NCBI GenBank assembly: GCA_902765395.1
Contig: CACWZP010000024.1
Coordinates: forward strand, 1-48,489
DNA from: an uncultured Eubacteriales bacterium
GTDB lineage: Bacteria > Bacillota > Clostridia > Christensenellales > Aristaeellaceae
Length of the DNA: 48,489 nucleotides
Reading direction: 5' to 3'
The position numbers and the translations under genes were made by a program. This document shows positions 13,857 to 34,910 of this stretch, in pieces (within the stretch, counting starts at the first letter, position 1; each line of letters opens with the position of its first letter). The notes below the pieces were generated by a model. That model worked only from the letters and a program-made list of their open reading frames with translations. It was not told where the DNA came from and did not search any database.

Positions 13857-13890
13857 AGAAGCGCGGCCTGATCGCTCAGGTCGCGCTTCT
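13857..13890. terminator. bidirectional terminator between sdaA and the TIR operon
   Basis: AGAAGCGCGGCCTGA (13857-13871) pairs with 13876-13890, with one G-T pair and a TCGC loop. It lies between two convergent genes. A run of T is present on the minus strand side (CTTCTTTGATG), so it mainly serves the minus-strand operon. Confidence 0.75.
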
Positions 13891-13907: not shown

Positions 13908-16900
13908 TCATTTGCTGCCGGCCATCTTCCTGCCCGTCTGGATCAGCGCGTTCAGGTCCGGGATCTGGCGGATGGTCAGGTCGTCGCCGTAGGTGCAGAA
14001 GTACAGCTCGTCCCGCTCGGGGTCAAAGCCGTACACGTTTTCCAGGTTCGCCAGCAGGTTCCAGTTCTGCCTGTTCAGCACCAGACCCTTCTGGCTGCAC
14101 CGGTCGATGATGTAGGCGCGGTGGCCGGCCCGATCCTCGCTGATCGCGGTGTCGAGGGTATAGCTCTGCTCCAGGCTGCCGCGGTAGACGCAATCCCCGC
14201 TGTCCAGCCTGAAGATCGCCAGCTGTTGGTCGTCCATGCGCAGCACCAGGTATTCATCCCCGAAGGCGAAGCGGACGTCCACCACGTAGTCCAGCGGCAG
14301 ATCCAGCGGCAGGGTCGTCATCAGCTTTCCGGCCCGCAGGTCGTAGACCCGCAGGGAGCGGTCCTCGTCCATCACGGCCAGCAGCGGCTTCTCCTGCGCC
14401 AGGGACATCATGCGCGTGCTGCTGCCGTGCTGCTCGTCCTCGGTGACGGTCCAGCTGCCCTCGGTGGTGTCGTAGGCGAGGAAGCTGTCCATGGTGTCGC
14501 TCTCCACGCCCGGGCCGTAGCTGCTCAGCAGGATCAGACCGTTGGCGCTCGCGCGCGTGAGCTTCGCCACGATGCTGCTGTCCCGCGTCGCCAAGCGCTT
14601 TTGCGATGGCATCGGCACGGCGTCCTGCTCCTCGGTGTCCAGCCACCAGCGCAGCGTTTCGCCGTCGCACCAGGCCGTCAGCAGCCGCCCGTCGGCCAGG
14701 TAAGCCGCGTCTGCGTTGGAGGCGGGCATCGTGTATACAGCGCCTAGGGCTTTGATCTCCATGTTTTTCTCCTCGGCCAGCAAGGTGTCCACATTGCCTT
14801 CAAAGGCGAAATGATGCACCGCCACGCCGTAGTCCAGCCAGATGTAGCCGGTGCCGTCCGAGAGGGCGAAGACCCTGCCGGGCTCATCGAATCTGTAGTT
14901 TTGTATTTCCGTCAACTCCCGGGTCTGCGTGTCCAGCTTCGCGCATTGCTGCACCTTGCCGTCGTCCCCGTAGGAATAGCCGTTGAGCAGCGCGCCGCCA
15001 TCCACGAACATCACGCCCGGCAAACTCCCGCTTTCCATGTAGCCGTCATTGTCCGGGAAGGGGATGGACTCCTGCACGGTGACGTTTTCATAGGGCAGAA
15101 TGCTCTTGACGCGCAGGACATGGTCGTCATCCTTGGGCACCATCACGATGCCGCCGAAGCCCTCTTCGTAATTCCCTGCCACGACTTTGTCGATGTTGTT
15201 GCCTGTGAGCACAGCCTTTATAAAGCCGTGCTTCATCGGGGCGGCCCGATCCAGAGCCCCCAGGTTGAAGCTCATGTTGAAGTTGCGGGAATCGTACAGA
15301 CCGTAGTCGTTCGACCAGCCCATCGCGTAGTAGCCGTTCTTCAGCTCAAAGCAGAACAGAGGGGTGCCTTCGAGGGGGTAGATATCCACCATCTCATCCA
15401 ACAGGCCCGTCTTGGCGGCGGTCTCGCCGTCCTTTGTGTTCAGGGCATAGAACTGATCCTTCATGCTGAGATACAGCGTATCCCAGGTCAGCAACAGGCA
15501 GCTCGTCTCATTGGAGGAGAAGTAGTAGTCTCTGTCCGCCTTGGGGGTTTGCTTCCGCCAGACCACCTCGCCGCTGGCCAGATCGAGCTTCGTGCAGGTG
15601 GCCGCACAGCTGTTGTCCTTGCAGCGCTGGATCACGTACAGGTTCTTCCCGCTCGCGTCCACGCGCAGGCCGACCACGGGCTCGGAATACCTCTCCGCCT
15701 CCCAGGATTGCAGCGTCCTGCTGGTTCCCGCCTCCAGGTCCACCACATAGATGTACAGGACATCGTCGTTGAAATAATAGCCGGCGAGCTTGCTGTCATG
15801 GTCGAAGAACTGGGCGTCCCGCAGCGCGCCGTGGGATTTGGTATAGATGGGCGTCGAGAAGTTGTACGACAGGTCGCTGTTCACTGAGGCCAGCGGCACG
15901 GTCTGGGCGATCTTGCCGGTCCGGGTGTCCAGCAGGTCGATCCAGTATTCCTTCCAGCCTTCGTTGTCGCCTTCGTCGGCGAAGCGATATTCGTTGTTCA
16001 GCACGGCCAGCCGGGTCCTGTCCTTTGACAGCACGATGGGGGCGGGGGACGAGATTTCAATGCCGTAGCGCCACATCAACTTGCCGGTTTCCTGGTCCAG
16101 GCAGGCGATGGAGGAGCGGCAGGCGTCGATCACGCCGTCCTCCGTCAGGAACAGCCGGGTGCTGCCAGGGAGGGCGCTGTAGGCCATGGAATCGCCGGTC
16201 GAGCGCCAGAGCGGCTCGCCGGTGTAGGGATCAAAGGCGTACACATCGCCATAGTCGTCCGCGGCGAACAGGCGCTCGCCCGCGTCGTCAACGGCGAAGG
16301 CGGTCACGGGAGACTGTATTGAAACCTCTGTCTCCGCCACGTAGGCGTGCGGCGTGGTGCTGAAATCGTATACGTGCAGCGCGTCCAGAAGCACCTTCTC
16401 GGCGGGACCGTAGTAGGGCCGGTCGTCCTCGGGGCCCTCAGGCAGGGCGGCCAGGGCGCTGCGAATGGCGCTGGTGGGGTCTTCCGACGCCAGGGCTTCC
16501 TGGGCGCTCCTGGTCAGCAGCGTGGACTCGCTCAGCTGGACGCGCTTCTTCTGCTCGATCAGCTCCTGATTCCGGGCGGTGATCTGGCCGTTCTTCACCA
16601 GCAGCATGCCGATGAAGGCCGAGGCCGCCACCGCCACCACGGACAGTCCCGCCGCCAGCCGGCGCGCGCGATAGCGCTTTTCCCGCTGGAACAGCGAATC
16701 GTAGGAGCAGCCGATCAGCGCCGCGAACAGGCGCAGCTTCTCGTCGTCCAGCTTGCGCAGCACCTCGTGGGTGCTGCCGCCGACGATGTTGGCCGCCAGG
16801 GGCTCGGTGTTGCCGATCACGTTGCCGTCGGCGTCGTAGATGTGCACCAGCTGGTCCGGGAAGGAGTCCTCCGGGCGGCCGTCCGCCAGCACCACCAGCA

Positions 16901-17213
16901 CGTTGTTGCGATCGTGATGCTCCAGGAAATAGCTGATCTCCCGCTGCACCCAGATGGACTTGGGCGTGTCCGGCGTGCAGACCACGATCAGGAACTGGGT
17001 GTGGTCCAGCGCCTCGTAGATGCTGGCGGACAGGTCGCTGGACACCGGCAGCTCGTCCTGGTCCCGGAACACCCGGCCCAGGCGGCGGCTGTCCCGCCCG
17101 GCGGCCAGCTTGGCCGGAATGCGATAGCGCTCGATCAGCTGGTGCAGCCGCTTGGCGACGGCGATGTCCAGGGGCATGTGCCGATAGCTGATAAAGGCGA
17201 TGTAATCATTCAT
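13908..17213 (-). CDS. TIR domain - transmembrane - beta-propeller protein
   Basis: A 1101-residue protein with a TIR domain at about residues 3-115 (AFISYRH box 1, a FRDQDELP loop, and SIWVQREI). Glu92 occupies the position of the NADase catalytic glutamate (WVxxE, as in SARM1), so NAD+ cleavage or cyclisation is plausible. A basic stretch (about 178-185) is followed by one membrane helix (about 186-207), then a helical region with an ALAALPEG motif (about 225-262). A long beta-propeller-like region of PQQ/WD type runs to the C-terminus. The positive-inside rule puts TIR in the cytoplasm and the propeller outside. AGGAGG lies 9 nt before the ATG. It is the last of three genes on one strand and follows the 180-residue protein by 24 nt. 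Ligand and target are unknown. Confidence 0.88.
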   Translation of the reverse strand: MNDYIAFISYRHMPLDIAVAKRLHQLIERYRIPAKLAAGRDSRRLGRVFRDQDELPVSSDLSASIYEALDHTQFLIVVCTPDTPKSIWVQREISYFLEHHDRNNVLVVLADGRPEDSFPDQLVHIYDADGNVIGNTEPLAANIVGGSTHEVLRKLDDEKLRLFAALIGCSYDSLFQREKRYRARRLAAGLSVVAVAASAFIGMLLVKNGQITARNQELIEQKKRVQLSESTLLTRSAQEALASEDPTSAIRSALAALPEGPEDDRPYYGPAEKVLLDALHVYDFSTTPHAYVAETEVSIQSPVTAFAVDDAGERLFAADDYGDVYAFDPYTGEPLWRSTGDSMAYSALPGSTRLFLTEDGVIDACRSSIACLDQETGKLMWRYGIEISSPAPIVLSKDRTRLAVLNNEYRFADEGDNEGWKEYWIDLLDTRTGKIAQTVPLASVNSDLSYNFSTPIYTKSHGALRDAQFFDHDSKLAGYYFNDDVLYIYVVDLEAGTSRTLQSWEAERYSEPVVGLRVDASGKNLYVIQRCKDNSCAATCTKLDLASGEVVWRKQTPKADRDYYFSSNETSCLLLTWDTLYLSMKDQFYALNTKDGETAAKTGLLDEMVDIYPLEGTPLFCFELKNGYYAMGWSNDYGLYDSRNFNMSFNLGALDRAAPMKHGFIKAVLTGNNIDKVVAGNYEEGFGGIVMVPKDDDHVLRVKSILPYENVTVQESIPFPDNDGYMESGSLPGVMFVDGGALLNGYSYGDDGKVQQCAKLDTQTRELTEIQNYRFDEPGRVFALSDGTGYIWLDYGVAVHHFAFEGNVDTLLAEEKNMEIKALGAVYTMPASNADAAYLADGRLLTAWCDGETLRWWLDTEEQDAVPMPSQKRLATRDSSIVAKLTRASANGLILLSSYGPGVESDTMDSFLAYDTTEGSWTVTEDEQHGSSTRMMSLAQEKPLLAVMDEDRSLRVYDLRAGKLMTTLPLDLPLDYVVDVRFAFGDEYLVLRMDDQQLAIFRLDSGDCVYRGSLEQSYTLDTAISEDRAGHRAYIIDRCSQKGLVLNRQNWNLLANLENVYGFDPERDELYFCTYGDDLTIRQIPDLNALIQTGRKMAGSK

Positions 17214-17237
17214 GGCTCGCGCCTCCTTGCCTGCCGG

Positions 17238-17780
17238 TCAATTCTCGAGTATGTCATAGGTCCGCTCGAACTCCTCCCGGACCACGAAGTTGAACTGGGC
17301 GTCCGTCACCCGGCCGTCCTCCGCCCGCGCAATCTCATAGAACACGATGACGGCGTCCCGGTTCGAGGAGAGCAGCGTGCCCCACAGCCAGGCGGAAAAG
17401 TAGCGCTCGGGATGCTGCCGGTCGATGGTCAGCCGCCCGCTGTCCAGCAGGAAGCGCATGGCGTCGCTGAGGGGCTGTCCCTCCCGCCAGGCCTCCAGGG
17501 GCCGCGGGCGCTGGACATAGCCGCGCTCCGTCAACTCGTGGTTCGCCAGGAAGTACTCGGCGGAGTTGGGGTAGGGGAACCCCTCCCGGTCCACCTTCAC
17601 GTAGCTGCCGGGCTCGGCCAGCTCGCCGCAGCTGTTCACGGCCTCCCGGGAGAACACCTCGTAGCGCCCGTCGTCCAGCCGCTTCAGCGCGCCGGAGGCG
17701 AGCAGCTGCTTCTCCAGCTCCGAGCCGTCGCCCAGGCGGCAGGCGACGACCGGGATGTCCCCTCGTTTCATGACGATCAT
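17238..17780 (-). CDS. conserved-looking protein of unknown function, TIR/RyR operon
   Basis: A 180-residue soluble protein that I cannot assign. It contains a central PGSYVKVDREGFPYPN segment, faintly like PGDY/PGDW-type sensor or ligand-binding modules of bacterial conflict systems (weak inference). A C-terminal region reads AWLWGTLLSSNRDAVIVFYE, suggesting a mixed alpha/beta core. No signal peptide or membrane helix. It starts 10 nt after the RyR-like gene stops, with GAGGAAG upstream of ATG, and ends 24 nt before the TIR gene. Position implies a shared function, perhaps an adaptor or toxin regulator. Confidence 0.75.
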   Translation of the reverse strand: MIVMKRGDIPVVACRLGDGSELEKQLLASGALKRLDDGRYEVFSREAVNSCGELAEPGSYVKVDREGFPYPNSAEYFLANHELTERGYVQRPRPLEAWREGQPLSDAMRFLLDSGRLTIDRQHPERYFSAWLWGTLLSSNRDAVIVFYEIARAEDGRVTDAQFNFVVREEFERTYDILEN

Positions 17781-17790
17781 ACGCGCTTCC

Positions 17791-19902
17791 TCATTTCATG
17801 CCGTCCAGCAGCGCCCGGGAGACGCCGCGGTCGTAGGCCTTGATGTCCTTGACTTTGCCCTCGATGCGGGTGCGGGCCATGGAGATCACGTCCAGGGCGT
17901 CCAGCCCCGCCAGGCTTTCGGGCATGCCGCTTATGCAGCCGGGCAGCCGCTGCGCCGCCGGGGTGTCGTCAACGGCGCACTCCACCAGGCAGGGGTGCAG
18001 CCGCCCGGACACGTTCTTGTAGGCGTAGCCCCGGGGCGCGTCGCCCTCCCTCAGGGCATCGATCACCGCGTCCACCCGCTCAAAGGGCCGGGTGAAGCCC
18101 TGCATCCTCAAAAACGCGTTCCAGCGCCGGTGCTCCAGCCAGGTCAGGCGGTTGACCAGCGCGTCCCGGGCCGTCTCGTCCGCCAGGTCCGCGGCGGTGA
18201 CGCAGAAGCGCTTGTAGGGCAGGTGGAAGCAGCGGCCCACCTCCGACCAGGTGTCGTAGATGCTGTCGCTGGACTGGCTGATGTCGGCAAAGCCGTGGCC
18301 CTCCTGCGCGCCCGCGCCCTCGTCCGCGGCGAGGAACGCCTCGTCCAGGAACACGTTCTCCCAGCTGTATCGCTCGCGGAAGCCGCCGAAGGGAACGATC
18401 TCCGGCGCACCCTCGACGGGCCGGAAGCGGTCGGACAGGATCTGCTGGAGCTCCGTGCTGCGGATCTCCACGGAAAGCGTCGGCGCGGCCTTGCCCGGTC
18501 GGCGCTGCTCCGTGCCGCCGAAGACCAGCGTGCTTCGGATGCCGCTGGCCAGCGCCAGGTTTTGCTGGTCGTCGCCGCCCATGACGAAGAAGTAATCGCA
18601 GTCGCACAGGCGGTATTTTTCCTCGCAGCCGTACATATAGCCCTGCTCCCGGGTCATCAGCTGGCGCAGGTTGGCCTGCTGCAGGTCTGCCTCGATGAAG
18701 GACAGGCCGCAGTAGGGCGCGGCGAAGGCCGCGGGGCCCTCGCCCTCGACGGACATCCGCAGGCATTCCGGGGGATTGTCCCCCCAGGTGCAGCTGTCGA
18801 TGATCTCCGGGCTCAGCCGGTTCAGCCAGGTCTCGTATCCCGGCGCGCCGTCCCCGCTCTGGCAGATCACGCTGATGTACAGCTGGACGCCCGCCAGCTG
18901 CCCGCACCAGAACGCGGTCTTGAACACCTCCCGGGCGAAGGGACTGTCGCCGAAGATGGCCACGCGCAGCTTTTTCCCGGGAGCATAATCGCCCAGGGGC
19001 GTGAACAGCGGCGCGCGCTTCAGCTGGGTGCAGGCGGCCTGGGCGTGGGGGCGGATCACGTTGACGGACACCGTGCCGCCCCGGGGCTCGGCGTCATAGC
19101 GGGCCTTGATGTCCCGCACGCATTCGATGATCTCCGAGTCGTTGGAGAAGAAGAACAGGTTCGCGCCGATCCCGGCGTTCCAGAAGTAGCCCTCCTCGCC
19201 CTTGAGGATGGCGTACAGGTCGGTGAGGTTCTTCTCCTCGTCGAAGTCGTCCTGCCCGCGCATCCGCATCAAAAACAGGGAACACTGCGGGGCACGGCGG
19301 AAATTGATGTGGTGGACGTCCTCGGCCAGGAAGATGCCGCCGATGTCGCTCACGCGCATCAGCAGGTCGTCCTCCGCGCCGTCCACATCCGCGAACACGA
19401 TGGCGATGGGCGATTTCGCGCCGTGGTGGGCAGCGATGTTTTCCGCCAGGGTGACGGAAGCCTCGTTGATCTCGGAGAATATGTAGGCCGGACGCCGCCG
19501 CCGGAACCACAGCTTGATGGACGGGGAAACGCCCGCCAGCACGTCGTACACGATGGCGCCGCCGGTGATGGGCGCGGTGCTGTAGAGTATGGCCAGGTAG
19601 ATCAGCAGCAGCAGCGAGCCGACGCCGCCGCCCAGCGCGGGGTACACCTCGTTCAGCATGCCGTAATCGGCATCCATGCTGAAGGCCTGCATGACCTCCA
19701 GGAAGAAGGAGGGGGAGAGCTGGTCGATGCCGCAGGCGGACAGGCCGAACCGGGCCATCAGTATGGCCACGATGACGGCGACGGTCAGCGTCAGCAGCCG
19801 CTGGGTCAGCTTCTGCGTGTGCCGCGCGATGATGAACCGCGCGATACCTGCGGCATAGGCGATGAAGGACAGTGAGAAAAACAGGATACCCGTCGCGCGC
19901 AT
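17791..19902 (-). CDS. membrane protein with Rossmann-like (TrkA-N type) and RyR-like domains
   Basis: A 703-residue protein from the ATG at 19902, chosen because GGGAAAGGAAAG lies about 8 nt upstream; a TTG at 19947 would add 15 residues. Membrane helices lie at about 4-26, 36-54 and 94-118. A nucleotide-binding-like Rossmann segment follows (SPIAIVFADVDGAEDDLL, about 164-181), then a second beta-alpha unit (LRVAIFGDSPFAREVF, about 312-327). Near the C-terminus a RyR-like module shows LTWLEHRRWNAF (586-597) and LHPCLVE (635-641), the EHRRW...HPxL pattern of bacterial RyR domains. RyR-type domains are suspected nucleotide or nucleotide-derivative sensors. It begins the operon with the TIR protein, so it may sense or answer a TIR product such as an ADP-ribose species. 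Confidence 0.75.
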   Translation of the reverse strand: MRATGILFFSLSFIAYAAGIARFIIARHTQKLTQRLLTLTVAVIVAILMARFGLSACGIDQLSPSFFLEVMQAFSMDADYGMLNEVYPALGGGVGSLLLLIYLAILYSTAPITGGAIVYDVLAGVSPSIKLWFRRRRPAYIFSEINEASVTLAENIAAHHGAKSPIAIVFADVDGAEDDLLMRVSDIGGIFLAEDVHHINFRRAPQCSLFLMRMRGQDDFDEEKNLTDLYAILKGEEGYFWNAGIGANLFFFSNDSEIIECVRDIKARYDAEPRGGTVSVNVIRPHAQAACTQLKRAPLFTPLGDYAPGKKLRVAIFGDSPFAREVFKTAFWCGQLAGVQLYISVICQSGDGAPGYETWLNRLSPEIIDSCTWGDNPPECLRMSVEGEGPAAFAAPYCGLSFIEADLQQANLRQLMTREQGYMYGCEEKYRLCDCDYFFVMGGDDQQNLALASGIRSTLVFGGTEQRRPGKAAPTLSVEIRSTELQQILSDRFRPVEGAPEIVPFGGFRERYSWENVFLDEAFLAADEGAGAQEGHGFADISQSSDSIYDTWSEVGRCFHLPYKRFCVTAADLADETARDALVNRLTWLEHRRWNAFLRMQGFTRPFERVDAVIDALREGDAPRGYAYKNVSGRLHPCLVECAVDDTPAAQRLPGCISGMPESLAGLDALDVISMARTRIEGKVKDIKAYDRGVSRALLDGMK

Positions 19903-19956: not shown

Positions 19957-19985
19957 AGTATACCATATCGCAGCCTGAATGAAAA
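19957..19985 (-). promoter_or_regulatory. promoter of the RyR-TIR operon
   Basis: On the minus strand TTTTCA (19985-19980), a 17-nt spacer and TATACT (19962-19957). The start site would be near 19950, just before a GC-rich inverted repeat (GAGCG...CGCTC, 19924-19939) in the short leader. Confidence 0.6.
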
Positions 19986-20139: not shown

Positions 20140-20184
20140 GTGCGCAAGCGGCAGCGGCAAGCTGCCCCGAAAGGAGCGTCCACC

Positions 20185-21930
20185 ATGGGCAACTATCGCA
20201 ATTTCAAGCTGACCACTTATTTCATCGCCCACGCCACCGCCCACATCACCCGGGACGAGCTGGAAAAGCAGCTGGCCTTCATGGAGAAGCACATGCGGCT
20301 GGACAAGGTGTACCTGGAGCCCTTCCGGGGCGAACTGGCCTCCGCCGAGCAGGTGGAGATGTGCCGCGAGGTGTTTAAGGCGCACGGCGTGGAGGTGGCC
20401 GGCGGCCTGACCACCGTCATCCCCACCCCCGAAGGCGACGCGCCCAAGGCCCGCCTGTTCAACACCTTCTGCTATAACGATGAGAAGATGCGCGCGCGGC
20501 TGAAGGAGGTCTGCGCGTTCATCGGCGGCCGCTTCGACGAGTTCATCATCGACGATTTTTTCTTCACCGGCTGCGCCTGCCCGGACTGCTGCCGGGCGAA
20601 GGACGCCTTCAACCGGGAACACGGCATTGCCGACGGCAGCTGGCAGGCCTACCGGCTGGACCTGATGCGCCGGGTGAGCGAGGAACTGGTCATCGGCCCC
20701 GCCAAGGCCGCCAACCCGAAGTGCAAAATCATCATCAAGTATCCCAACTGGGCCGAGAGCTACCAGGAGACGGGCTACAACCCCGCCCAGCAGCGCAGAC
20801 TGTTCGACGGCCTGTACACCGGCACCGAGACCCGCGACCCCATCGTCACCGACCAGCACCTGCCCCGGTATCTCAGCTATTCGCTGATGACCTACTTCGA
20901 GGCCATGTGGCCCGGCCACAACGGCGGCGGCTGGTTCGACACCTTCGACATGCATATCACCGAGCACTACCTGGAGCAGGCGTATCTCACGGCCTTCTCA
21001 AAGCCGAAGGAGCTGATGATGTTCTGTTTCCAGAGCATGTATGACAACATGTACACCGCCGCGCTGGGCTTCCAGCTGGACAAGCTGGACGCGGTGCTGG
21101 ACCACGCGGGCAGTCCCGTGGGCATCGTCTGCTACCTGCCGGACGACAGCCAGGGCGAGGACAACGTGCAGGACTTCCTGGGCATGGCGGGCCTGCCCAT
21201 CGTCTGCACGCCCTGGTTCCCGGAGGACGCCGAGAATATCCTGCTCACCCGGGCGGCCGCCTGCGACCCGGACATCGTGGAAAAGCTGGAGCGCTGGCTG
21301 ACAAACAAGGGCGGCAATGCCATGGTCACCACCGGCTTCATCGAGGCCACCGAGGGCCGCGGCATCCATGCTCTCACCTCCATTCGGCTGCGCGGCCGGA
21401 AGATCAGCGCGCGGCACTACCGCGTGGAGCAGGCGAACCGTCGGCTGTGCCTGTACGCCACCGGCGACCGGCCCATCACCCTCCCCGTGGCGGAGTTCCG
21501 CAACAACGCCACCTGGGCGGTGGTCAAGGCGGTGCACGGCGAGGAGAGCTACGGCATCCTGCTGCGGGATCACTACGGCAAGGGCACGCTGTGGACGCTG
21601 GCCGTGCCGGACGCCTTCCCGGACATCTACCACATTCCCGCCGAGGCCCTGGGCCGCATTCGCCAGGCCATGCCGGTGAACGGGCTATGGATGGAGTGCC
21701 CCTCGGGCGTGAGCCTGTTTGCCTACGACAACGACAGCTTCATCGTCTATCCCTACGTGATGAGCACCACCCAGTTCCGGCTGGTGAAGGTGCACGCAGC
21801 GGGCGCGAAGGCGCTGGTCAACCCCGTCACCGGGCAGCGGCTGGAGCCGCTGTACACCGACGGCGACGAGGCCGTGTTCGAGCTGGCGCCCAAGTCCGGC
21901 GAATACGCGCTGTACCGGATAGAAAGATAA
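20185..21930 (+). CDS. putative glycoside hydrolase-like TIM-barrel protein
   Basis: A 581-residue cytoplasmic protein (no signal peptide) with an N-terminal TIM-barrel-like region. Features are YLEPFRG, then FDEFIIDDFFFTGCACPDCC with Asp123-Asp124 and a CxCxxCC cluster (130-136), then KIIIKYPNW, then TYFEAMWPGHNGG. The C-terminal part is beta-rich, as in accessory domains of family GH-A-like enzymes. Homologues in gut bacteria are, as I recall, mostly annotated hypothetical or as putative glycosidases. No catalytic pair can be assigned, and the DD and EAMW residues are candidates. GAAAGGAG lies 9 nt before the ATG; an upstream GTG at 20140 lacks a ribosome site. Monocistronic between a promoter and a terminator. 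Confidence 0.6.
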   Translation: MGNYRNFKLTTYFIAHATAHITRDELEKQLAFMEKHMRLDKVYLEPFRGELASAEQVEMCREVFKAHGVEVAGGLTTVIPTPEGDAPKARLFNTFCYNDEKMRARLKEVCAFIGGRFDEFIIDDFFFTGCACPDCCRAKDAFNREHGIADGSWQAYRLDLMRRVSEELVIGPAKAANPKCKIIIKYPNWAESYQETGYNPAQQRRLFDGLYTGTETRDPIVTDQHLPRYLSYSLMTYFEAMWPGHNGGGWFDTFDMHITEHYLEQAYLTAFSKPKELMMFCFQSMYDNMYTAALGFQLDKLDAVLDHAGSPVGIVCYLPDDSQGEDNVQDFLGMAGLPIVCTPWFPEDAENILLTRAAACDPDIVEKLERWLTNKGGNAMVTTGFIEATEGRGIHALTSIRLRGRKISARHYRVEQANRRLCLYATGDRPITLPVAEFRNNATWAVVKAVHGEESYGILLRDHYGKGTLWTLAVPDAFPDIYHIPAEALGRIRQAMPVNGLWMECPSGVSLFAYDNDSFIVYPYVMSTTQFRLVKVHAAGAKALVNPVTGQRLEPLYTDGDEAVFELAPKSGEYALYRIER

Positions 21931-34560: not shown

Positions 34561-34910
34561 GGGGCCGTATTTGGTTTCGACGGGGATGCGGAGGGACAGA
34601 GAAGCGAGCGGCGGCCCTGAACCGCCTGAAAACGGGAACTTAAATGAACTGACAACTACGATAACGTAGCTTTCGCCGCTTAATCGGCGATCGTCGACCC
34701 TGAGCGTCCTGCCGCGCAGGCCATCGACGTCATAATAGCAGGGAACCAGCTGCCTTAAGCTTTGCGGGCGGCGGGACTTTATGAAGCTACTGAAGCCAGA
34801 ATCCTGTCTGCGGGAGTTTGGCGGAGGGAATGTCAATACACAGACTGCGCTCGGAGATGCTCTGGTCTTCTGGTCTTCGGACAGGGGTTCGACCCCCCTC
34901 GGCTCCACCA
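34561..34910 (+). ncRNA. ssrA: transfer-messenger RNA (tmRNA)
   Basis: A 350-nt one-piece tmRNA. The 5' GGGGCCG pairs with CGGCTCC before the encoded ACCA end (acceptor stem with one G-U). TTTGGTTTCGACGGGG and GGGTTCGACCCCC form the D-like and T arms. The internal message reads ACT GAC AAC TAC GAT AAC GTA GCT TTC GCC GCT TAA (34648-34683, key residues TDNYDNVAFAA), and pseudoknot-forming GC-rich segments follow. The tag ends in a hydrophobic -AFAA, suited to ClpXP-type degradation. It ends stalled translation together with SmpB. Confidence 0.96.

Follow-up and report, generated by a model that had tools for sequence, protein, structure and literature searches.

A 48,489-nucleotide stretch of DNA from an uncultured gut bacterium of the Eubacteriales (contig CACWZP010000024.1, hereafter the window) carries a minus-strand locus of three genes that is tentatively read, at somewhat under an even chance, as a TIR second-messenger circuit with an ion channel as effector, in which a TIR-made signal would be sensed by an RyR module and passed through an RCK ring to a pore. 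The genes have 703, 180 and 1101 codons (gene 1, protein P0001; gene 2, P0002; gene 3, P0003; Table 1) and are separated by gaps of 10 and 24 nt, as an initial annotation had described; stretches resembling ribosome-binding sites are present. The architecture of the proteins, the conservation of their residues and the recurrent linkage of their genes are computed observations, and for the TIR/RyR pair the production of a signal, its sensing, the gating of the channel and abortive infection are hypothetical steps. The domain guesses of the initial annotation held, but it had missed the RCK-gated-channel build with its non-K+ loop.

Predicted channel and RyR module

Searched as single sequences against Pfam and PADLOC, P0001 and P0002 gave no match at E ≤ 1, and in NCBIfam the two gave one match, to an antiporter, far below the cut-off. 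In the AlphaFold model of gene 1 (pLDDT 88.5), helices that may be of pore type precede a pair of RCK domains, and an RyR module ends the chain. The helices span about residues 3-25, 32-56 and 94-122, residues 66-74 forming a possible pore helix, and are followed by RCK1 (about 138-296), RCK2 (about 310-523) and the RyR module (about 547-702). Fold searches matched the model to gating rings, indicating a tandem RCK gating-ring fold, and the earlier description of a membrane protein with Rossmann and RyR parts is borne out by the RCK/Rossmann model and by an RyR profile match. The nucleotide-binding folds expected there are present as folds, but RCK1 opens with FSEINE (FSELNE in the family) instead of a glycine-rich loop. 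Among the RCK2 glycines, G318 occurs in 77/77 aligned rows and G320 in 65/77, P0001 not being among the latter.

The presumed pore loop is, from its sequence, a conserved acidic loop and not a K+ filter. Among the 76 rows with a residue there, F74 is kept in 67, S75 in 54, D77 in 58 and Y80 in 57, position 79 is D in 46 and E in 12 (58/76 together), and the family form is FS(M/L)DEDY. Within profile A2, a TVGYGD filter occurs only in relatives L033-L035. A KcsA match of this profile (E 2.7e-4) was discarded as pore evidence because A2 contains three K+-channel rows. Profile A1 gave no KcsA row among the best 60 of its 67 matches, and the hhalign alignment of profile A3 with K+-channel rows begins only after the pore.

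The C-terminal module matches RyR at the profile level, the best hit of the gene 1 family profile among RyR-domain structures being to an RyR1 chimera (E 1.8e-14). P0001 alone fell under the Pfam cut-off for RyR PF02026 (0 families), and PF02026 was found at E ≤ 0.1 in 8 of 16 A2 members and 2 of 53 A3 members. According to a preprint of May 2026 (PMC13232231), phage RyR-domain proteins bind 2'/3' cyclic ADP-ribose (cADPR) via H75, W78, H100 and D117, and one of them cleaves it. Four residues corresponding to these are kept in the gene 1 family, namely H591 (76/77 aligned rows), W594 (77/77), H636 (76/77) and D691 (65/65); the EHxRW pattern used in the search partly dictates the first two, whereas H636 and D691 are free of that bias. 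The H+3 spacing of H591 and W594 is the same as that of phage H75/W78.

These residues also bear on a quite improbable alternative, in which the RyR modules would serve as an off-switch by binding or cleaving the signal made by the TIR, and the membrane protein would control the level of that signal and not be an effector channel. The cleaving phage protein, RyDEP, hydrolyses cADPRs using H75/D117, both of which have counterparts in gene 1, and homologues serve as sponges (PMC13232231); lone RyR genes, moreover, occur in 20 of the 80 named channel loci. Such an off-switch leaves the tandem RCK domains and the pore-type helices unexplained, and none of the other phage homologues tested in that work cleaved, while 6/8 bound (PMC13232231).

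TIR proteins and other partners

Gene 3 has Pfam matches over the cut-off (TIR PF13676, 34.9 bits, and PF08937, 32.2 bits; PQQ-type propeller PF13360, 45.8 bits). The TIR domain (about residues 5-115), one transmembrane (TM) helix (about 187-206) and a propeller of PQQ/WD type (about 290-1090) agree with the layout first proposed. Arginines precede the single hydrophobic stretch at about 187-206, as read from the sequence, and the TIR domain probably lies on the cytoplasmic side with the propeller outside; the suggestion of an external cue comes only from this propeller placed after one TM helix. The presumed catalytic glutamate E92 is E in 43/43 aligned TIR rows, same-locus copies included, and aligns with CLEEL of plant Roq1 in a weak PDB match (E 0.07). 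In Roq1 and SARM1 the equivalent glutamate is the catalytic one. PADLOC gave no ThsB match for P0003, only PDC-S66 at E 0.062. A relative of gene 3 (L022 4215-7520, G018:C22) has one in-frame TAG stop inside its propeller.

The co-occurrence foreseen in the initial annotation was found: by curated PF13676, a TIR lies ≤10 kb away in 15 of 45 family places, about 1 being expected. For this set pieces of one gene were merged and three rows were dropped (a 25-residue match, G014:C137; G469:C145; and a lone RyR-like protein, G418:C14:34770); the last of these adjoins a TIR. With our own TIR profile, a TIR was near 19 of the 80 named loci against about 1.3 expected, a generous figure given that the profile was partly trained on such loci; the background density was 1.04 TIR matches per Mb (114 in 109.7 Mb). 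Of these 19 loci, 16 have their nearest TIR on the strand of the channel gene and 14 have it less than 1 kb away; the RyR-channel pair of L032 has its TIR on the opposite strand. On the family tree the TIR label needs 15 changes, 13 of them forced by starred branches, and its clustering was not significant, 60 of 500 shuffles being as low. As shuffled labels cluster comparably often, the pairing is one of recurrence, or repeated re-pairing, and not of a TIR clade. Sister loci L061 and L065 have the same gene 2-channel pair, with AAA and CARF-like genes upstream in L061 and a TIR-TPR gene in L065. A search starting from gene 3 led to G068 (L196), where, judged by eye, a pair of TIR genes precedes a likely relative and a channel with TVGYGD; no channel was seen at six other TIR-propeller loci.

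Gene 2, which the initial annotation had left as an unknown, is the channel's closest partner, adjoining or fused to it in 10 of the 80 loci. Its model is confident (pLDDT 94.2), and fold searches matched it to no solved structure. Matches occur in 3 of 297 genomes of the order, its own included. Eleven loci (L057-L065, L067, L083) share at least 33% identity with P0001 along the greater part of that protein, and gene 2 is present in 10 of them, the single exception, L083, being cut by the contig end on its upstream side; in L060 the domain is fused to the channel C-terminus (1003 aa). L142 (G677:C34, 7411-9105, minus, 564 aa) joins it with a TIR of CAP12 type and a STING domain of prokaryotic type, both of which exceed the Pfam cut-off; a second copy in G677 (L141) has neither channel nor TIR in view. 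The idea that gene 2 corresponds to the RyR domain that stands alone in other operons was rejected, 11 members giving 0 RyR matches.

A reversed order of events, in which the RCK/RyR channel-like protein senses an ion, a nucleotide or the membrane state and licenses the TIR, NAD+ depletion then killing the cell, is considered unlikely. Here the RyR module would read ADP-ribose (ADPR)/NAD status and not the TIR product. In its favour, RCK domains are ligand sensors, depletion of NAD+ is how many defence proteins with TIR domains act, and gene 2 is fused to TIR-STING, an NADase effector type. This order is opposed by the RyR quartet, which matches the cADPR pocket of the phage work, and by TIR modules that look exchangeable around a kept channel, fitting trigger modules that feed one effector.

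Besides the lone RyR genes, the 80 loci include 16 with AAA ATPase genes and 13 with CARF/Card1-like genes, and 52 have at least one of lone RyR, AAA, CARF-like, TIR or gene 2. TIR (19) and AAA (16) share 0/80 loci, the two figures coming from different search reaches. RyR-RCK channels near AAA ATPases and CARF-PDDEXK/Card1-like proteins, an alternative module, occur in L073 (3594-10998), L061, L078, L101, L103, L104 and L115. An M41 peptidase domain is present in the L073 AAA protein, which has IetA as its best PADLOC match, and in both AAA proteins scanned from L026 and L061. PADLOC matches among family partners are IetA and CARF-PDDEXK (L073), ThsB (L028, L037) and a TIR effector (L142).

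Relatives with a canonical TVGYGD K+ pore were found in L033 (4172-5641), L034 (1951-3444), L035 (8850-10370) and L196 (10447-11988); each adjoins a second RyR-type membrane protein (in L196 by eye), a TIR is near those of L033, L035 and L196, and Pfam shows both channel and RyR in L034 and L035. Very large proteins in L047 (7015-11253) and L054 (7780-11859) contain both a protein kinase domain and a segment belonging to the channel family, and have a weak Card1-like match under the cut-off; in L047 a gene 2 relative adjoins. The window's own genome has a distant family stretch, mainly the RCK part, at G000:C25:1938-2852 (L056).

Surroundings and distribution of the locus

Of the single promoter and terminator initially assigned to the operon, the terminator may correspond to a strong hairpin, and the promoter-like site did not score above chance (Table 1).

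Table 1. Positions in the window of the three genes, selected residues and flanking signals.
Feature	Position	Strand	Basis or remark
Gene 1, predicted RyR-RCK channel, 703 aa	17791..19902	minus	
Gene 2, 180 aa, alpha+beta domain	17238..17780	minus	AlphaFold
Gene 3, TIR-TM-propeller, 1101 aa	13908..17213	minus	
Presumed pore-loop motif FSMDADY, residues 74-80	19663..19683	minus	acidic; K+-channel relatives have TVGYGD there
RyR motif EHRRW, residues 590-594, with ligand residues H591 and W594	18121..18135	minus	conservation; pairing with RyDEP H75/W78 is our reading
RyR ligand residue H636 (LHPCLV)	17995..17997	minus	HMMER alignment onto HPCLV of animal RyR1; 76/77 rows
RyR residue D691 (YDR), likely counterpart of RyDEP D117 (our reading)	17830..17832	minus	65/65 rows, 12 gapped
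Presumed catalytic glutamate E92 (WVQRE) of the gene 3 TIR	16938..16940	minus	conservation
Promoter-like site upstream of gene 1	19957..19985	minus	score not above chance
Strong hairpin downstream of gene 3, possible terminator	13857..13890	minus	z -3.25; absent from the promoter/terminator scan listing

Among the window neighbours tested with Pfam, one encodes a dicarboxylate symporter, another a serine dehydratase, and two more a SufC-like ABC ATPase and a protein of SufBD type; PADLOC gave 0 matches for three window genes outside the trio. Any match to the locus was found in 14 of 100 relatives (own genome included), and the trio in 4 of 28 genomes of the genus; the flanking genes differ between G000/G018 and G019. 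This patchy presence, the differing flanks and the family partners that match PADLOC models suggest that the system probably acts in defence. The same observations count against a housekeeping role, itself rather improbable, in which gut Clostridia would respond to ions or nutrients, the propeller sensing an external ligand and the channel adjusting membrane potential or osmotic balance; in its favour are the metabolic nature of the adjacent genes tested and the housekeeping-like context shared by some relatives. A viral origin was without support, 0 of the 43 viral_contigs stretches that matched a pattern encoding a relative.

A 596-aa protein adjoining the trio (window 20140-21930) has no Pfam match at E ≤ 1; counting its own genome, 17 of 28 genomes of the genus encode it at identity ≥72%. 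An empty site was sought beside this gene, and 0 of 12 stretches, several of them short, had the symporter or serine dehydratase; nothing follows from this. A tmRNA lies at window 34561-34910, where ARAGORN seems to have misread the tag as AGNQLP; by eye, a different frame at about 34648-34683 gives TDNYDNVAFAA-stop, which is closer to a usual tag.

Signalling models and known systems

In the circuit tentatively favoured here, gene 3 would sit in the membrane with its TIR inside and its propeller probably outside, and upon a cue the TIR would convert NAD+ to an ADP-ribose-type signal, as its family membership and conserved glutamate suggest. The signal would bind the RyR module of gene 1 via H591, W594, H636 and D691, a proposal made because these residues are identical to those of the cADPR pocket of phage RyR proteins. 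From the fold, binding may shift the tandem RCK ring and open the pore. The acidic loop suggests a cation path without K+ selectivity, through which the membrane would depolarise and growth or phage replication would halt. Gene 2 may be an accessory of channel and TIRs, perhaps for signal specificity or complex assembly, this being the weakest step. Two points weigh against the circuit: the gene 1 pore is possibly silent, and many family members are without TIR, pairing with AAA, CARF-like genes or nothing recognised, the TIR link therefore being frequent and not universal.

By this account, the best one, the three-gene system would work like Thoeris and would not be a member by effector type. 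In both, a TIR with a presumed catalytic glutamate adjoins a protein with a domain of ADPR-binding type, and gene 3 exceeds the Pfam ThsB_TIR cut-off. However, the presumed effector of the locus is RyR-RCK channel-like, whereas ThsA of Thoeris is SIR2-SLOG or TM-macro; the TIR protein has a TM helix and propeller, a 180-aa protein is added, and gene 3 is without the PADLOC ThsB match given by the channel-linked TIRs of L028 and L037. Gene 1 resembles RCK-gated channels (GsuK, MthK, Slo, CASTOR/DMI1) in its tandem RCK ring and perhaps in the helices before it, which may be of pore type, but differs in the acidic loop in place of TVGYGD, an extra N-terminal helix and the C-terminal RyR module. 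With RyR proteins (PF02026, animal ryanodine receptors, phage RyDEP) it shares profile similarity and the H, W, H and D residues; it differs from them in about 20 additional residues that separate W594 from H636, in the joining of the RyR module to an RCK ring and TM region, and in a single sequence below detection. TIR-STING effectors of CAP12 type are related through the 180-aa domain fused to one in G677, whereas Pfam found neither a STING domain nor a cyclase in the three-gene operon.

Among the papers listed by literature searches, no title or abstract described RyR-RCK channels with TIR, a scope that does not establish priority, and the text of PMC9503650 mentions neither RyR nor TrkA. 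A more specific reading, which is doubtful although still plausible, is that of a bacterial messenger-gated cation channel, in which TIR-made cADPR isomers would open the RyR-domain RCK channel, the triggers would be exchangeable (TIR, or AAA ATPases with CARF-like proteins) and the 180-aa protein, whose domain is possibly a new fold, would be an adaptor. If true, this would be a prokaryotic version of the long-debated axis from cADPR to the ryanodine receptor.

The effectors known for bacterial TIR signalling consume NAD+, target membranes or cleave proteins, and an RyR-domain ion channel as TIR effector would be a new class. The gene 2 domain, which occurs fused with the channel as well as with TIR-STING, offers a new marker in searches for NAD-signalling systems. 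An RyR-RCK effector would tie the 2026 finding of cADPR binding by phage RyR proteins to a host channel with the same residues, and whether RyR domains sense cADPR becomes directly testable on a module of about 155 residues.
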